Of a stretch of DNA of 25,696 nt, positions 666 through 24,725 are shown one piece after another. The DNA is from a virus, in IMG/VR virus record IMGVR_UViG_3300020183_000411, positions 1 to 25,696 of that record, one strand, 5' to 3'. Below the pieces are notes generated by a model. It did not search any database and was not told the origin of the DNA. It was given only the letters and a program-made list of their open reading frames with translations. How positions within the stretch are numbered: the first letter of the stretch is position 1; each line of letters opens with the position of its first letter. The position numbers were made by a program, and so were the translations under genes.

Positions 666-1327
666 CCAAAAGTAGAATCAGGTTCCAGAGCAATATAATA
701 CTTCAGGTTGTACTTGGTGTTCGTGAATTGTGACAGAAGTTTAGAAGACACCACCACATCGTAGGCACCAGGAATAATCTTGATGTTCTCCACCTTGAAG
801 TTGAACACAAACTCAGAATCGGCCTCACCAACCACAATAGCGTATTCGTTAGAAGTATCATTCTTCTTATCACGAACCACCAGTTTGATTACACCGTTCT
901 CACCAACCACAGAAAGATCTGGCAGTTGATAGATTGCAGCAGCCTTGAGTAGTTTGTCAAGTTCTTTAGTATCAAGAAGGAAACAAACATCTTCACTGGG
1001 AAGTGAAATAGATTTGTCTGGAGGAGTTACAATTACATTAGGATCTGCAAAGAAATACTTAGACCTAGACTTACCTTCCTTAATCACAACATAACCATCA
1101 TTCTGAAAATCAAGTTCGGCATTCTGATGCAGATTCAATCCATTCAAAAATTGATTCAGATCATAGATACCAAAATCTTTGGGAAGTTCTTCTTCAATTG
1201 TCGCTTCTGCAAGAATATTCTTCATCACAGAAATGGTTCGCAGTTGCTTACCTTCCTTGAACAGAATGGATTGATTGATAGAAGAAAAGTTCTTCAATAC
1301 TGTAAGAGTTTTATCAGAGAGTTTCAT
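662..1327 (-). CDS. 45: DNA polymerase sliding clamp (processivity factor) gp45
   Basis: This is the homotrimeric ring that tethers the phage polymerase to DNA and, in T4, also couples late transcription to replication through gp55 and gp33. The start MKLSDKTLTVLKNFSSIN closely matches T4 gp45 (MKLSKDTTALLKNFATIN, from memory). The C-terminal YIALEPDST block matches the T4 YVVALEADST segment. The product is 221 residues against 228 in T4. An in-frame ATG at 1346-1348 would add MKLKPQT. I prefer the ATG at 1325-1327 because it aligns with T4, although neither start has a clear Shine-Dalgarno. The stop overlaps the start of the next gene. Internal blocks such as FGIYDLNQFL also match the T4 IYDLNGFL region. 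Confidence 0.93.
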   Translation of the reverse strand: MKLSDKTLTVLKNFSSINQSILFKEGKQLRTISVMKNILAEATIEEELPKDFGIYDLNQFLNGLNLHQNAELDFQNDGYVVIKEGKSRSKYFFADPNVIVTPPDKSISLPSEDVCFLLDTKELDKLLKAAAIYQLPDLSVVGENGVIKLVVRDKKNDTSNEYAIVVGEADSEFVFNFKVENIKIIPGAYDVVVSSKLLSQFTNTKYNLKYYIALEPDSTFG

Positions 1328-1353
1328 AGTTTGAGGTTTCAGTTTCATAATAA

Positions 1354-1680
1354 TCAGCGGAACTCAGTAAGTCCATTATCTCGACGGGAATAATGTCCGT
1401 CAAAGTGAAGCAGAAGCATAGCATAGTGAATCACTTTAAGCAAATCGCGTTTGCTGCGTCCATCCTTATCACCATAACGGCTGCCATACTTAAGGATGTT
1501 TGCTTGGCAAAAACCAGGAGCAAGATCCTTTGCTGCCATCAAGTCAATAGTTTGGATATCACTATATTCTTCATTGTGTCCACAGTAGTGACTACCATAA
1601 GTACTAGTTACGTACACCTCAACATCTTTGAGGATTTTATCTTCGTTGTATTTCCAAAGATGATTTTTAGATTCGCTCAT
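1354..1680 (-). CDS. DUF3310-like small phage protein (108 aa)
   Basis: This is a small soluble protein just upstream of gp45. From about residue 38 it shows the DUF3310 pattern as I remember it: an IQTIDLMAAKDL helix, then FCQANILKYGSRYGDKDG, then a DLLKVIHYAMLLLH helix. This matches the family form FclGNalKYlxRxxxK-eDLkKaxxYL. DUF3310 proteins are common in phages, often beside nucleotide-metabolism genes, and have no agreed activity. The N-terminal 35 residues carry SHYCGHNEEY, which might contribute metal or nucleotide binding; that is speculative. It lies 58 bases after the cobS-like gene, separated from it by a GC-rich hairpin, and ends 26 bases before the preferred gp45 start. Confidence 0.75.
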   Translation of the reverse strand: MSESKNHLWKYNEDKILKDVEVYVTSTYGSHYCGHNEEYSDIQTIDLMAAKDLAPGFCQANILKYGSRYGDKDGRSKRDLLKVIHYAMLLLHFDGHYSRRDNGLTEFR

Positions 1681-1707
1681 AATAACAATAAAGTAAAATC
1701 ATTTGCA

Positions 1708-1731
1708 GGGGAAGGCACATTTACCTTCCCC
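1708..1731 (-). terminator. GC-rich hairpin after the cobS-like gene
   Basis: An 8-bp perfect stem (GGGGAAGG pairing with CCTTCCCC) with an 8-base loop begins 7 bases after the cobS-like stop codon. On the minus strand it is followed by TGCAAATG and not by a run of T, so it is not a canonical intrinsic terminator. It could be a weak terminator, an RNA processing site or a 3'-end stabilising structure. It is the only strong structure in this 58-base gap. Confidence 0.4.
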
Positions 1732-1738
1732 AATTATA

Positions 1739-2878
1739 TCAGTTTGTAGTGTCCATGTCAACTTGCCATCCGCCCTCAATTTCAAGTTTAGGTTCGGTAG
1801 GCATCTGGAAATCAGCATCCACCTTATCATACAGTTCCAGGAAGGACTGCTTGGTTTCATCATCAAAGCGGTTCACACACACTTGGATCGCCTTTGCTTT
1901 GTCTTGGAAGATGCTGTAGGCACGGATGATGTGAACCAGACGGCGAGTGCTGATGATTTCCTCAATACCACCATCATAGAACGTCTTACGGATGATGTCT
2001 GCCCAGTCAACCAACCTCTTACAGAAGTCACGATCTTCCACATCCAGATCCAGAGCAATACCTTCCAAGATCTTCTGCTCGGTAGCAGGAGCAGGATAAG
2101 ACTGCTCAAAGGTCACAGGAAAACGCTCAAGAAAAGCTTCGTTAAGCACATTGGTGCCAATGAAACGGCCGTCATCACTACCCTTACCTTTGGTGTTGGC
2201 AGTAGCAATCACGTTGAATCCTGCAGCAGGTTTTACAAAACGACCAATCTTCTTCAGGAAGACACCTTTACCTTCAAGAATAGATTGCAGACACAAAATC
2301 TTATTGGATGCTAGATCAATTTCATCCAACAACAACACTGCACCACGCTCAAGTGCTTCTACTACAGGTCCATTGTGCCAGGCAGTCTCACCATTCACGA
2401 GACGGAAACCACCAATGAGATCATCCTCATCAGTTTCAATGGTAATGTTGACACGGATAAGTTCGCGCTTCAGTTGAGCACATGCTTGCTCAACACTGAA
2501 CGTTTTACCATTACCAGAAAGACCCGTGACGAATGTTGGATAGAAAAGACTGGATTGAATAATTTTTTTAATATCGTTAAAGTTACCAAACTTGACGAAG
2601 GTATCATCTTTATCAGGAATAAGGTTTTGATGAACTTCAGGAAGAACAGACACGTTTTGAAACGAACGCTCAATCTCTTCAACACGTTCTTGCGTCACTT
2701 CAAGATTCCAACGACCACGAGCAGTTTTATATTGTTCAAGACGACGGGTCACAGTTTGATAGTTTAAACTACGAGAAGCACAGAAACCCTTCAGATCACC
2801 AGAAGTGATTTCCGAACCGTAAAGTTCTTGAATAGATGCAATGAGTTGTTCGTCTTTCAAAGCAAGTTTGCGAGGCAT
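1739..2878 (-). CDS. cobS: CobS-like MoxR-type AAA+ ATPase
   Basis: This 379-residue protein has an N-terminal basic, probably DNA-binding-like segment (residues 1-65, helix-turn-helix flavour) and an AAA+ core. Walker A is GLSGNGKT at 119-126, Walker B is VLLLDEID at 181-188, and sensor 1 lies in the IATANTKGKG region near 224-233. The insert with WHNGPVVEAL before Walker B is typical of the MoxR/CobS branch. Cellular CobS works with CobT in the cobaltochelatase that puts cobalt into hydrogenobyrinate diamide. Homologues are widespread in T4-like cyanophages, where the true substrate is unproven. A VWA protein resembling the partner class is encoded upstream at 3705-5846. A terminator (2920-2941) precedes the gene. 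A TATTAT hexamer at 2910-2915 is a weak -10 candidate, and no Shine-Dalgarno is seen. Sampled sequence is noticeably more GC-rich than its neighbours. Confidence 0.85.
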   Translation of the reverse strand: MPRKLALKDEQLIASIQELYGSEITSGDLKGFCASRSLNYQTVTRRLEQYKTARGRWNLEVTQERVEEIERSFQNVSVLPEVHQNLIPDKDDTFVKFGNFNDIKKIIQSSLFYPTFVTGLSGNGKTFSVEQACAQLKRELIRVNITIETDEDDLIGGFRLVNGETAWHNGPVVEALERGAVLLLDEIDLASNKILCLQSILEGKGVFLKKIGRFVKPAAGFNVIATANTKGKGSDDGRFIGTNVLNEAFLERFPVTFEQSYPAPATEQKILEGIALDLDVEDRDFCKRLVDWADIIRKTFYDGGIEEIISTRRLVHIIRAYSIFQDKAKAIQVCVNRFDDETKQSFLELYDKVDADFQMPTEPKLEIEGGWQVDMDTTN

Positions 2879-2919
2879 AATTTAGTTAGGTGGTTTTCTC
2901 AACAAAGCCATAATAGAAC

Positions 2920-2941
2920 AAAAAAAGGGGTTTAAAACCCC
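2920..2941 (-). terminator. Rho-independent terminator
   Basis: On the minus strand the sequence reads GGGGTT, a 3-base loop (TTA), AACCCC and then a run of seven T. It lies directly after the 61-residue gene (stop at 2949) and before the cobS-like gene (start at 2878). It would therefore end the late-type unit that begins near 3699 and insulate cobS from it. The short stem with a long T tract is a classic intrinsic terminator layout. Confidence 0.75.
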
Positions 2942-2948
2942 CCTTGTG

Positions 2949-3134
2949 TCAGTTTGCCAACTGGTTCCGAAGTGTCTCCAAATATTCTTTACTAGCACAA
3001 TGACCTTTATATCCTGGATAATATTTTTCAACTATAGCAGGAATACCCATAGCAGTGATTGAACTTTGACACAACACCCAAACTTCTTTGGTGTCATACT
3101 TAACAACATGTTCAAGTGGAAATTTAGTTTTCAT
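2949..3134 (-). CDS. Small hypothetical protein (61 aa)
   Basis: This 61-residue product overlaps the 3' end of the preceding basic-protein gene by 11 bases and is followed after 8 bases by an intrinsic terminator. It is the last gene of that short unit. The sequence is soluble and mixed, with VWVLCQSS in the middle, two cysteines and a YYPGYKGHCASKEYLETL block near the C-terminus that is predicted helical. I recognise no family. Coupling to the gene above suggests co-expression, but its start (MKTKFPLEHV) does not match the capsid-targeting pattern of that gene. The reading frame is supported by the overlap, the absence of any other frame, and the terminator placement. Confidence 0.6.
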   Translation of the reverse strand: MKTKFPLEHVVKYDTKEVWVLCQSSITAMGIPAIVEKYYPGYKGHCASKEYLETLRNQLAN

Positions 3135-3678
3135 ATGTGAATGTTTTATTTTTTACTTTAGTATCAAATTCGCCAGTTCTACCTGGTTTCATTTTTCCAA
3201 CTTTGACATTTTTACCTTTGCCAGGCCAAGATGTCTTAGAAGTTCCTTTAAGAGTTGCATCACTCTTCGGTTTACGTTGAATCAATACTGAATCTTGATC
3301 ATCCTTTGATGAACCTTTAACATTACGTTTATGCTTTAGTCCACCTTCAGTTCCAAGTTTCTGAATTGTTTTTTTAAATCTTTTCTTACCCATTTTACCA
3401 GAAGAAACTACATGTGATTTCTCACCAACTTTCTTCTCTTGTGGGGTTCCTGGATTTTCGGTGTAACGTCCAGAGACTTTTGTAGGCCCTGGAAGGCCTG
3501 CTCCTCTGATTCTTCTTTCTGTTCTAGCAGATCTTGCTTTATTTTCTTTTTTAGATTTGTCTCCTCTTTGTCCAGAAAGAATTGCTGTTCCACCCTTTTC
3601 AGTCTTTCTCATTACACGAGTAAGAGAAGTCTCTTGAATAGAATAACATTCTATCATAAATTCTTGAAAAGTCTTCAT
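3124..3678 (-). CDS. Probable internal head protein with a T4-type capsid-targeting N-terminus (184 aa)
   Basis: The protein starts MKTFQEFMIE. T4 internal proteins IPI, IPII and IPIII start MKTYQEFIAE, the capsid-targeting sequence that directs them into the prohead before gp21 protease removes it; 7 of 10 residues are identical. A second possible gp21 site of the (I/L)-x-E form, IQE, follows at residues 14-16. The remainder is strongly Lys/Arg-rich, low in hydrophobic residues and probably disordered, as expected for a small basic DNA-associated internal protein. An ATG 12 bases upstream (3688-3690) is in frame. I chose 3676-3678 because it aligns with the T4 signal and leaves room for a leader behind the GATAAATA motif at 3699-3706. 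Body function is unknown. The packaging call is inference from the N-terminus, charge and late-type promoter. Confidence 0.72.
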   Translation of the reverse strand: MKTFQEFMIECYSIQETSLTRVMRKTEKGGTAILSGQRGDKSKKENKARSARTERRIRGAGLPGPTKVSGRYTENPGTPQEKKVGEKSHVVSSGKMGKKRFKKTIQKLGTEGGLKHKRNVKGSSKDDQDSVLIQRKPKSDATLKGTSKTSWPGKGKNVKVGKMKPGRTGEFDTKVKNKTFTYEN

Positions 3679-3698
3679 CTGCCCGAACATATTTTAAA

Positions 3699-3706
3699 TA
3701 TTTATC
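3699..3706 (-). promoter_or_regulatory. Late-type promoter motif GATAAATA
   Basis: This octamer differs by one base both from the T4 late element TATAAATA and from the AATAAATA sites found before structural genes in this window. It ends 20 bases before the chosen start of the internal-protein gene and overlaps the TGA stop of the VWA gene (3705-3707), the same layout as at gp20 and gp67. It marks a late unit inside an otherwise replication-type region. Confidence 0.6.
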
Positions 3707-12081: not shown

Positions 12082-12641
12082 AAGGGATCGCCATTTAAAT
12101 CAACTATATCGTAGATAGTATACTTGAAAGATACGTCTGCTGTAAAGTATTGAACATCAGTATCGGTTGCATTAAACTCAAGTGTGGATAATGAGTATGG
12201 CCACAAATCCTTAAATTTAATTTTAAAATTTGTATTATTGCTACTTGTCATTACTTGCAAAGTTCCATCAGAGTAGATATTCATCATTTTTGATGATGAA
12301 GTATTGACTTTGGATTGTTTGTTTTGCAAATCATAGATTTCTTTCAAAGACTCTGGATATCCAAGGCCCCTCATCCAGTTTTGAATTTCCATGTAATTTT
12401 CAAGATCTTCATCTACGAGAAATCTCAAAGTAAAATCTTCAAAAACAATTTTATCTCCAGGATTATCAATATCTTTAAGATAAGATGGTTGAATTGCTAC
12501 ACCAAGAGTCATTCCTGGAATATTAGCCGTATTACTTAAAAAAGCAACTTTGGGCGCCCTATTTAACATGAATTTAAAACCAATCGGGGACAGAAAGTTT
12601 CGATTCTGTATCTGATTATTAAATGCGTTACCGACTGCCAT
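12078..12641 (-). CDS. 3: Tail completion / tail-tube-related protein, probably gp3
   Basis: This 187-residue protein has a tail-tube-like sequence. Residues 19-100 run LSPIGFKFMLNRAP, then NIPGMTLGVAIQPS, FEDFTLRFLVDEDLENY and NWMRGLGYPES, a layout shared with gp19-fold tube and terminator proteins. In T4-like cyanophages the gene between gp23 and uvsY is gp3, which caps the head-proximal end of the tail tube and stabilises the sheath, so I assign that by position. A second tube-fold protein such as a gp54 relative is the alternative. The length agrees with T4 gp3 (176). It is separated from gp23 by a strong terminator, preceded by a weak late-like element (12652-12660), and heads the overlapping gp3-uvsY-uvsW set. 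Confidence 0.75.
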   Translation of the reverse strand: MAVGNAFNNQIQNRNFLSPIGFKFMLNRAPKVAFLSNTANIPGMTLGVAIQPSYLKDIDNPGDKIVFEDFTLRFLVDEDLENYMEIQNWMRGLGYPESLKEIYDLQNKQSKVNTSSSKMMNIYSDGTLQVMTSSNNTNFKIKFKDLWPYSLSTLEFNATDTDVQYFTADVSFKYTIYDIVDLNGDPL

Positions 12642-15348: not shown

Positions 15349-15999
15349 TTAAAGATTTGAAAGAAAATCATTAAACAGATTTAATTTTTGCTCATCAAGT
15401 TTCTTTTGATCTACAAGAGTATTGATTCTCTTATAAGTTTTAGCGGCATACTTTTCACGAAGAATGCCACCATCCCATACCCATTCTTTACCTTCCATGA
15501 TTCCTGATACAAATGCATCAGGAGCAGAAGGATCAGCAACAATATCAGCAGCAGTGGCAAGCATAAAATCTTCACCAACCATATTGTATCCTTCTCTAGT
15601 CTGCTTCAATGATCCAACACCACGAGAAGAAACACCTAACTTAACTCCTTCACTAATCAAAGATTCTGCAATCTTACCCATTGGAGTATTCAGAATCTTT
15701 GCCTTACCAATAAAGTTCGAACCGCTTTCTCTTAAAGAAGTAATCTTGTGCGAAACTCGATCAAGATTTACAGTAGGTCCATCTGGATGTCCGAGTTCTC
15801 CAAGAGCTCTTCCTGCCATAATGTGATTTTCATTATAGCGAGCAACTTCACGACGAAGAGTTTCCATTGGATACATACGACCATTACGGTTGCAAATATC
15901 ACCTTGAAGGAAAACACCTTCAATGTAAAGTGACTTTTTACCGTTGCGTTCTTCAACGATAAATTCTACTGATTCGATTTCTTCTCTGATAAGTTTCAT
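15349..15999 (-). CDS. 21: Prohead core protease gp21
   Basis: This serine protease matures the prohead by cutting scaffold, core and shell proteins after (L/I)-x-E. The 216-residue product (T4 212) starts MKLIREEIESVEF. His71 in GELGHPDGP and Ser124/125 in LGVSSRGVG are the likely catalytic residues of the herpes-like prohead protease family. An in-frame upstream ATG (16054-16056) would extend the protein by 19 residues into the preceding gene. I prefer 15997-15999 because the shorter form matches the family and starts 1 base after the preceding stop. Its substrates probably include gp22, gp23 (LME at 55-57), the gp67-like protein and the candidate internal protein at 3124-3678. Confidence 0.93.
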   Translation of the reverse strand: MKLIREEIESVEFIVEERNGKKSLYIEGVFLQGDICNRNGRMYPMETLRREVARYNENHIMAGRALGELGHPDGPTVNLDRVSHKITSLRESGSNFIGKAKILNTPMGKIAESLISEGVKLGVSSRGVGSLKQTREGYNMVGEDFMLATAADIVADPSAPDAFVSGIMEGKEWVWDGGILREKYAAKTYKRINTLVDQKKLDEQKLNLFNDFLSNL

Positions 16000-16000
16000 T

Positions 16001-16555
16001 TTACGCTTGACCTGTGATTTGTACTTGTTGAGCAAACATATTTCCCGTTCCTCCATCAGAAATAAATGAAACTTTTAATGAATTTCTTAATTCTGCATAT
16101 GAAGAATTGAAACTGGTTACAATACCTGAAGTATTGGTGCCAATACCAATTCTAGTTGAGAAATACCCATTATAACCAGAAGAAGTGTTTACTGAAATAA
16201 CTGGTTGGTGTGTAAAATCATAATAACTTTGGTCCGATACAACTAAAGATACATAATCTCCAACTTCAAATTGAGAAGCCAAGCCCTCTTCAAAAATAAG
16301 TGTTGTTGTTCCTCCTGTCGTAACACCAACAACTCTTTGAGATCTGGGAGCTCCCAAACTTACAGTTTCAGGATTATTCGTTGTTAAAAAATAATCTACA
16401 TGAGATGCAGTCGGTTCAGTTCCAATGGCAATATGACCTCTTGCGCCAAAGGCAACAACTCTCAAAGTATCAGTTTTATGAACAAATGAACTAGATTTAA
16501 CTGCGCTTCCGGTAGAAGTTACTGTAAATCCCGTTCCAACTGGTTTATGTGCCAT
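16001..16555 (-). CDS. Probable structural protein (184 aa) between the gp67-like gene and gp21
   Basis: This 184-residue protein is rich in Ser, Thr, Gly and Val with a beta-rich look: MAHKPVGTGFTVTSTGSAV at the start, GARGHIAIGTEPTASHVDYFLT near 38-59 and GTGNMFAQQVQITGQA at the end. I recall similar proteins at this position in T4-like cyanophages, annotated as structural or hypothetical. A head-decoration or vertex role would fit the small beta-rich fold and the location in the head cluster, but nothing in the sequence proves it. It has its own AATAAATA element (16580-16587), and its stop is 1 base from the gp21 start, so the protease probably shares this message. Confidence 0.78.
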   Translation of the reverse strand: MAHKPVGTGFTVTSTGSAVKSSSFVHKTDTLRVVAFGARGHIAIGTEPTASHVDYFLTTNNPETVSLGAPRSQRVVGVTTGGTTTLIFEEGLASQFEVGDYVSLVVSDQSYYDFTHQPVISVNTSSGYNGYFSTRIGIGTNTSGIVTSFNSSYAELRNSLKVSFISDGGTGNMFAQQVQITGQA

Positions 16556-23291: not shown

Positions 23292-24725
23292 TCAGCAATT
23301 CCAAGCTCTAAGAGATTTATTGATTCTTGAATCTGGGTCTCTTGCGGTTTTTGCTGAAGTTAATTTTGCTTTCATTCCTTTCATACGAGCACAAAATGAT
23401 GCTCTACGTGGATTGCCAACCTTCTTTGAAGGTGCTTTGAGGTCACTACCAGGATTCTCGCGTTCATAAGACTTACGTCCTTTCTCATTTAAACCGCCTG
23501 CTTTATTTTTTCCTTCTTTACGTTGCCACGCTGCAACTTCATCTAATTCAACTTCTTCACCATATGTTTTTACATATGCTCTACTTGGCCCAATGGATCC
23601 TGCACTTCCACCTTGAGGAAAACCAGATTGAATAAATGGTTCACCGGGATTAAAATCTGAGACGTGATAAGAAAGCACTGCTGCTCCAGGATATACCTTT
23701 TGAATCTGATCGATGATTTCTCTACGATTCGGCATTCTAACTTGAGGGAAAAACATTTTATTCATATATGTCTTCCCACGCCAAGAAATAATAACAGAAA
23801 TTAAATTTCCATTAGTTGCAGGTAATCTTACTGCTTCTTTAATTGATTCAGTAGTTTCACATTCGCATTTATCTTTTTTGCATTTTGAACAATGCTTCTC
23901 TTCTCCAACTGGAACGCAATTTGGAACGATCTTTTTACCTTTTTTCTTCATTCCAACTTGCTTATAACCAACCCAACACTTTTCATCTAATTCTAACTCA
24001 TTCAGAATTTCTGCTACAATACCTGAATACTCTTCAGACTTATTTCCCCAGTTAGCAGCACCAACTTTGCGACACTTAACAAGTGCTCCTGATGCATATG
24101 CACTAGGCCAAACGCTATATCTTGATTTTACTTTACTATAGCAAGCATCTTTCTTTCCACTACTTTTACCTTTTTTATCTGTCTCTTCATTCATTTCTCC
24201 ACTATCAACATAATCTGCTGCAGAATCTAAGTAATCTGCTGCCTTTGTGATTTTTGATTGCACCCAGGCCTCAATATTACCTTCACCTTTCCCCATTTTT
24301 GCTTTCAATCTTTTTGCTGCACTCACAATCGTAGATAGTTCTGAGCGAGCCATTGAATACTCGTGATCTCTTTCTTCTTTCATTTTCTTTTTGGGGGGAT
24401 CTGTGGAAACGTAAGTTGGTTTTGCTGCACCAGATTTTTGTTGCTGTCCAGGATCTGCTGCTTTTTTTCTTCTAGATGCAGATAATCTTTCTGCCTTTGT
24501 CATACTTGCTCTTTTTGCAGAAGAAACACATTTTGGAGTTCCTTCTCCTGGTTCATCACTTGCACAAGTTCCGCCAGTTACAACATTTACCCAACCAGGC
24601 TTTCCTTCTTTTGAACGAGAACCTTTGAACCATTGATGCAAATTGCCTTCAGTCACATCTTTAAATTTTTTATGATGCTTCTTTGCAATCTGTTCTACTG
24701 TTTTATGGGACTTTAACTTATTCAT
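23292..24725 (-). CDS. Modular Cys/Lys-rich protein (477 aa), probable virion-associated protein
   Basis: The protein is a chain of short basic modules. Residues 32-110 (QWFKGSRSKEGKPGWVNVVT, two Cys, an ERLSASRRKKAADPG block) and 192-225 (DACYSKVKSRYSVWPSAYAS, ALVKCRKVGAANW) resemble the DUF5872-type repeats I recall from marine phages and giant viruses. Residues 118-176 form a helical module. Residues 279-289 carry a CSKCKKDKCEC cluster, and 308-365 form a compact domain (LISVIISWRGKTYMNKMFFP). Residues 398-477 look like DUF6321 (AAWQRKEGKN, GGLNEKGRKSYERENPG, FCARMKGMKAKLTSAKTARD). Candidate gp21 sites of the (L/I)-x-E form lie at linkers: LDE 246-248, IKE 295-297 and LDE 394-396. Function is unknown. 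A late motif (24746-24753) and the structural neighbours suggest a late, particle-associated role. Confidence 0.75.
   Translation of the reverse strand: MNKLKSHKTVEQIAKKHHKKFKDVTEGNLHQWFKGSRSKEGKPGWVNVVTGGTCASDEPGEGTPKCVSSAKRASMTKAERLSASRRKKAADPGQQQKSGAAKPTYVSTDPPKKKMKEERDHEYSMARSELSTIVSAAKRLKAKMGKGEGNIEAWVQSKITKAADYLDSAADYVDSGEMNEETDKKGKSSGKKDACYSKVKSRYSVWPSAYASGALVKCRKVGAANWGNKSEEYSGIVAEILNELELDEKCWVGYKQVGMKKKGKKIVPNCVPVGEEKHCSKCKKDKCECETTESIKEAVRLPATNGNLISVIISWRGKTYMNKMFFPQVRMPNRREIIDQIQKVYPGAAVLSYHVSDFNPGEPFIQSGFPQGGSAGSIGPSRAYVKTYGEEVELDEVAAWQRKEGKNKAGGLNEKGRKSYERENPGSDLKAPSKKVGNPRRASFCARMKGMKAKLTSAKTARDPDSRINKSLRAWNC

Follow-up and report, generated by a model that had tools for sequence, protein, structure and literature searches.

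The 25,696-nucleotide stretch of DNA analysed here (the window; IMG/VR record IMGVR_UViG_3300020183_000411) derives from a T4-like cyanophage, of whose genome it covers 25.7 kb. Among named phages it stands closest to Synechococcus phages such as SynMITS9220M01, Bellamy and S-SM2, with ~77% identity over parts, and its genes of interest all lie on the minus strand. The gene studied here (3127..3678, with the stop codon TAA at 3124-3126) encodes a basic protein of 184 residues (isoelectric point, pI, 10.4; net charge +28) that starts with MKTFQEFMIE, as read in an earlier note on this DNA. Along the protein we located a capsid-targeting-type sequence at residues 1-10 (3649..3678), a predicted site for the prohead protease gp21 with the cut after E16 (IQE/T, the slash marking the cut; 3628..3639), and an S-adenosylmethionine (SAM) lyase/PII-like domain at about residues 31-181 (3136..3588). 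The domain bears a 14-residue insertion at about residues 110-123 (3310..3351), directly before Q128. Upstream, the late-promoter-type motif GATAAATA (3699..3706) ends 20 nucleotides before the start codon, exactly as the note had it. An alternative start, the ATG at 3690, would add MFGQ to the protein (MFGQMKTF); it was rejected because the homologues begin at MKTF and the late motif would be only 8 nucleotides away.

The earlier note likened the first ten residues to MKTYQEFIAE, given there as the start of the T4 internal proteins (IPs) IPI to IPIII. The agreement of 7 in 10 residues was confirmed with T4 IPIII (BLASTP, 7/11, E = 0.007 in a single comparison), and the attribution holds for IPII and IPIII only, IPI starting with MKTFKEFTSTTTPVSTITE. 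Head targeting of T4 IPIII needs no more than its first ten residues, and mutagenesis assigned residues 4 and 7 to targeting and residues 8 and 10 to processing (PMC9026906). Of the homologues, 41 have an intact start; in these, position 4 was F or Y and position 8 was M, V, I or L in every case, position 7 was also always aromatic (39 F, 2 Y), and position 10 was acidic in 39 (35 E, 4 D). The N-termini of the homologues, where the note had looked for a possible refutation, thus keep the targeting pattern of a capsid-targeting sequence (CTS). The linker between this tag and the domain varies in length in the homologue alignment, with both of its ends fixed. A strict form of the tag pattern occurred 11 times at the starts of open reading frames (ORFs) in five genomes, against ~0.16 occurrences expected from its internal frequency.

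A second element of the T4 system follows the tag. The gp21 protease cleaves after L/I-x-E (PMC9026906), and in all 46 homologues we found [I/L/M/F]-x-E before [S/T/A]S, with E invariant and I or L at P3 in 42/46. The BLASTP alignment to T4 IPI spans residues 1-29, pairs MKTFQEF---MIECYSIQETSLT with MKTFKEFTSTTTPVSTITEATLT, and includes the junction SIQE/TSLT opposite TITE/ATLT. T4 IPI is 95 residues long and matures to 76 (PMC3012670); it is therefore cut after E19 (ITE19/A), which is exactly the site aligned with IQE/T, and the expected mature N-terminus of the window protein is therefore residue 17. Of the two processed ends, residue 11 or 17, that the earlier note proposed, we kept the latter. 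A main cleavage after residue 10 was demoted because position 10 varies, and is missing in some short forms (MRTFAEFVELQE), while E16 is invariant; a gp21 cut after E16 (IQE/TSL) is thus better predicted than one after E10. The expected trimmer is the product of a gp21-type prohead protease gene at 15349..16056, an assignment drawn from the order of the genes and from matches with portal-protease-scaffold-capsid blocks annotated in cyanophages.

The body of the protein is a SAM-lyase-family domain and not an orphan, and the suggestion of a body unrelated to anything has to be dropped. The window protein matched PF23780 (S-adenosylmethionine lyase) in Pfam at 30.0 bits against a cut-off of 28 (5.5e-7), and the same family matched all 46 diverse homologues, at best with 1.4e-21. 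In the phage lyase Svi3-3, Gly56, Tyr58, Glu69 and Gln104 contact SAM, Glu69 is critical (its mutants are ~1500- to 4500-fold lower), and Glu105 contributes (PMC7877911). The equivalents of G56, Y58, E69, Q104 and E105 in the window protein are G70, Y72, E86, Q128 and D129, and none of the five changes in any of the 46 sequences, whose identity goes as low as 53%; the G, Y and Q also align with the T3 SAM lyase, in whose row the Glu is offset (MAFFT). AlphaFold models of the window protein and of a shorter homologue showed the order b1-a1-b2-b3-a2-b4 of a ferredoxin/PII-like fold. When these models were compared by Foldseek with 350,542 PDB chains, the top matches of both were the T3 SAM lyase (8bb1) and Svi3-3 (6zm9/6znb). 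SAM lyases took ranks 1-3 with the window model and ranks 1-7 with the shorter homologue, PII/CutA proteins ranked lower, and the fold matches in a viral library included annotated SAM hydrolases. Cellular relatives such as DUF3293 gave weak matches, and PADLOC and NCBIfam gave none for the lyase protein. Searches of IMG/VR with two queries returned 343 and 349 relatives in overlapping sets, so the lyase protein is common.

The motif GATAAATA matches the late promoter NATAAATA of the cyanomyoviruses S-PM2 and Syn9 (PMC2984593). Within the window, TAAATA was found 11-37 nucleotides upstream of 6/12 late/morphogenesis-side genes versus 0/12 of the replication-side genes checked. The six comprise gp22, the gene at 16555, gp20, gp18 and the gene of a 477-residue protein, each preceded at 20-37 nucleotides by AATAAATA, and the gene at 12641, preceded by TCTAAATA; the other six late-side genes had no TAAATA-type motif upstream. 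TAAATA also lies within 80 nucleotides upstream of the lyase gene in 47/53 non-redundant homologues, mostly 18-24 nucleotides from the ATG, against a background of 4.9% in windows drawn at random on the same strand and 12% in other ORFs, and the sequence around it differs between homologues though the motif is kept. Because of this frequency over a low background, the insertion of a late unit into a region of early/middle-type genes is well supported at the level of sequence. The unit continues into a 61-residue ORF (2949..3134) that overlaps the end of the lyase gene and was matched as its frequent 3' neighbour in many IMG/VR relatives; family searches gave no significant match for it, and a hit to N4_GP8 (E 0.079) was dismissed as chance. 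Behind this ORF, the terminator noticed earlier could be confirmed as an intrinsic-terminator-like hairpin with a T run (2922..2945), which closes the unit. On its outer sides stand a VWA/peptidase-like gene (5846-3705; phrog_459) and a MoxR-type AAA gene (2878-1739), with clamp-, gp46-, gp47- and gp55-like genes nearby, and the bracketing of the unit within an early/middle-type region, as the note described it, is upheld.

Part of the evidence for packaging comes from a homologue. ORF6 of phage S-CREM2, which shares 46% identity with the window protein and has the tag MKDFDSFLEE and a late motif 21 nucleotides upstream, yielded 19 unique peptides from virions purified on CsCl (PMC10665884). 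We translated all 219 coding sequences of S-CREM2 and compared the N-termini of its 52 virion proteins with those of the 167 others. A loose tag rule, chosen after the virion N-termini were seen, was matched by 5/52 virion proteins versus 0/167 others (Fisher P = 6.5e-4), and a rule nearer the T4 tag by 4 versus 0 (P = 0.003); a plain MK or MR start was not enriched in the virion proteins (P = 0.7). The five tagged virion proteins are the SAM lyase, an NMNAT, an APH-like kinase and two hypothetical proteins. The same tag is carried by the NMNAT/cytidylyltransferase of S-CREM2, S-SM2, P-SSM2, Syn30, S-SSM5, S-SZBM1, S-SCSM1, S-H34 and P-TIM68 (the annotated one of P-HM2 lacks it), by a kinase of S-CRM01 and by small proteins. 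NMNAT/cytidylyltransferase has been detected in virions of S-CREM2, S-SCSM1, S-SZBM1 and S-SM1 (PMC10665884, PMC9602691, PMC9146016, PMC3037559). Related phages thus do contain proteins with this N-terminus and different bodies (NMNAT, kinase, Cas9-like and small proteins), as the earlier note had anticipated. The authors of the S-CREM2 and S-SCSM1 studies stated that contamination of the virion preparations could not be excluded (PMC10665884, PMC9602691); that the virion proteins share a targeting signal makes contamination less likely. The tag positions, the conserved protease-type site, the late motif and the virion-detected homologue support a late-expressed, head-bound protein with a T4-type CTS. 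Packaging of the lyase is well supported by homology; for the window phage itself we infer it, together with an effector role.

Taken together, these data suggest that the gene encodes a head-packaged, CTS-targeted and gp21-trimmed SAM lyase that would be delivered with the phage DNA, a reading to which we give a probability of about two in three, its catalysis, cleavage, ejection and purpose being the conjectural parts. The lyase would be transcribed late from GATAAATA, and its residues 1-10 would dock it on the prohead scaffold as a T4-type CTS. The gp21 protease would then cut after E16, and the strongly basic lyase so released would be confined with the head DNA, aided by its positive charge, and ejected with it into the next cell. 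There, a PII-like trimer would cleave SAM to methylthioadenosine (MTA) and homoserine lactone before phage gene expression. Loss of SAM could starve restriction-modification, BREX or other host methylation, which would fit a counter-defence at time zero like the one that the T3 SAM lyase mounts against restriction and BREX. The lyase may belong, with NMNAT, the APH-like kinase, a Cas9-like nuclease and small ORFs, to a limited group of cargo proteins that bear the same tag in these cyanophages. In the T4 head, each IP is present in ~360 copies and CTS fusion proteins in 20-200 (PMC9026906), and Svi3-3 turns over ~9.5 times per second (PMC7877911). At that rate, 100-300 copies would cleave ~1000-3000 SAM molecules per second, and if a small cyanobacterium is assumed to hold 10^3 to 10^5 SAM molecules, the pool would drop in seconds to a minute or two.

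Several observations weigh against a delivered SAM lyase. The proteomic support comes from homologues and the enzymology from other phage SAM lyases, not from the window protein itself, and the S-CREM2 authors note possible carry-over in CsCl preparations (PMC10665884). A second tag comparison, in S-SCSM1, was too small: the NMNAT is a virion protein, and the tagged ORF SSCSM1_30 is not labelled as one. The P-SSM2 homologue is divergent and without the late motif. No PDB relative of the window protein was found by sequence alone (phmmer and profile search), and pairwise BLAST to the T3 SAM lyase was not significant, so that family membership rests on the profile, the residues and the fold, the last from models of modest confidence (pLDDT 54 and 65). 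The 14-residue insertion belongs to the window subfamily, is absent from more distant homologues, and maps to the B-loop, next to the predicted active site, where it could change substrate or activity. Finally, the net charge of +28 compares with +2 for the T3 SAM lyase and +2 to +9 for the T4 IPs, and DNA binding could therefore be the main job of the protein.

This last point leads to the most serious rival, which we nonetheless regard as unlikely: a packaged protein that is not enzymatic in practice, a CTS-tagged basic PII-fold protein comparable to T4 IPII/IPIII and serving to neutralise and condense head DNA, or to regulate by binding SAM or a nucleotide. The charge, the high pI, the lysine/arginine-rich chains of the fusion relatives described below and the insertion at the active-site loop would all suit such a protein; however, pure condensing has no need of five active-site equivalents, the critical Glu among them, that stay invariant across the 46 sequences. 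Quite improbable is a packaged enzyme with another, related substrate, SAM-AMP for example, that would serve against type III CRISPR. The fold, the key Glu and the key Gln recur in the SAM-AMP lyase family (PMC12255297), one structure, 9gab, appears low in the Foldseek list, and the loop insertion could alter specificity, but the top fold matches are SAM lyases. Moreover, four residues after the Gln a SAM-AMP lyase has Thr and a SAM lyase Ile (PMC12255297), and the hydrophobic L132 of the window protein, four residues past Gln128, is nearer the latter. Least probable of all is an ordinary late intracellular SAM lyase with a CTS likeness due to chance and an S-CREM2 detection due to carry-over. 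Abundant soluble proteins can persist in CsCl preparations, as the S-CREM2 authors say, but the tag is conserved at the positions defined in T4, is common to unrelated virion proteins and enriched at protein starts, and has a conserved protease site behind it, in fusions as well.

Several relatives from metagenomes are longer chains that end in the lyase module and are headed by their own tag, such as MKTYQEFTTEA, MRTYQEFVSEM or MKTFQEFMIEA. These chains (L100, L102, L110, L135, L160 and L015) are made up of lysine/arginine-rich modules, and their few L/I-x-E sites lie mostly at the module borders and always include the one before the lyase; L160 has one such site, and L100, L102, L110 and L015 have four. 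Judged from their sequences, the fusion relatives look like cargo polyproteins that would be cut apart in the prohead.

Other proteins carry the tag or share modules with the tagged proteins. The 477-residue protein of the window (23292-24725, minus strand; phrog_727, C-terminal DUF6321), with AATAAATA 20 nucleotides upstream, contains a module (ISWRGKTY...QKVYPGA) common to the C-termini of the fused lyases L107, L113 and L117 and found also in the tagged small proteins S-SCSM1_30 and L226; it is possibly another head cargo family. The Cas9-like protein, which was virion-detected in S-CREM2, carries the tag (e.g., GFSSFLKEA) behind a short N-terminal extension of the kind MSxSRWSRW and is encoded at L082 2769-5378, L083 3965-6898 and L221 6243-9161, as well as in S-H34, S-N03 and S-CRM01 (g128). 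At L223 546 on the plus strand (S-CRM01 139045), a tagged protein of 131 residues (MKTFDEFLTEG...) with TATAAATA upstream resembles, by eye, a GNAT acetyltransferase. At L225 (G003 contig, minus strand), a tagged, proline/glycine-rich protein of 418 residues (MKSFREFMIEA...) stands behind a terminator-like stretch and TATAAATA. The gene of the S-CREM2 virion SAM lyase adjoins a DNA adenine methylase gene, as also in S-H34, and lies near an EcoRI-like endonuclease gene (L082 6947-7837, 5459-6028); a link between SAM depletion and self-methylation is possible in S-CREM2.

T4 internal proteins are the model for injected anti-restriction factors. A wider proposal, which we hold at even odds, is that T4-like cyanophages possess a general system for delivering proteins by means of a tag, in which the prohead protease trims a short CTS (M-[K]-x-F-x-x-F-[LIM]-x-E) that brings shuffled unrelated enzymes into heads, namely SAM lyase, NMNAT, kinase, Cas9-like nuclease, acetyltransferase and small proteins, some of them as polyproteins split into modules by this protease in the prohead. 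The CTS has been suggested as a possible general loading mechanism (reviewed in PMC9026906), and the conserved tag would tie this loading to catalytic cargo in abundant ocean viruses. If the proposal is true, SAM- and NAD-modifying enzymes strike the host at time zero, the tag accounts for the NMNAT, kinases and SAM hydrolase in cyanophage virion proteomes, and it gives a sequence rule for predicting the cyanophage proteins that accompany the DNA into the cell. SAM-dependent defences would be disarmed directly by a SAM lyase active from time zero.

The T4 CTS and internal proteins, phage SAM lyases, and the virion SAM hydrolase of S-CREM2 with its proposed host entry are known already. Within the limited literature that we searched, the following had not been reported before and are apparently new: the tag and protease site, both on the lyase family and on unrelated virion enzymes, the conserved late motif, the catalytic-residue check and the polyprotein layout. 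The window protein resembles T4 IPI, IPII and IPIII in its N-terminal tag, with F/Y at position 4 and F at 7, in the gp21-type L/I-x-E site and in being small, basic cargo of a dispensable type. It differs from IPI and IPIII in that BLASTP similarity is significant in the N-terminal region only, no homologous mature body being found with either, and the window body is an enzyme-family domain. With the phage SAM lyases (T3 SAMase, Svi3-3), it shares the PII-like alpha-beta domain, the Gly-x-Tyr, the Glu and the Gln-Asp/Glu; unlike them, it has a capsid tag, a protease site, a late motif, strong basicity and a loop insertion. The S-CREM2 ORF6 is a direct homologue with the same type of tag, its identity extending over the first 171 residues, but it has 414 residues, with an extra C-terminal part, and lies among different genes, having a Dam methylase and gp46/47 as neighbours. 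Its authors proposed a virion-associated SAM hydrolase possibly entering the host; in the text of that paper that we read, the tag, the protease site and the catalytic residues are not mentioned (PMC10665884). The set of cargo proteins suggested by the earlier note is thus not wholly undescribed. The window protein has a single domain, and several modules occur in its fusion relatives only. These relatives (L015, L100, L102, L110 and L160) recall the polyvalent proteins (PMC5512222), being multi-module chains that include a lyase, as expected of injected proteins; they differ in that L/I-x-E sites separate the modules and a T4-type CTS heads the chain.
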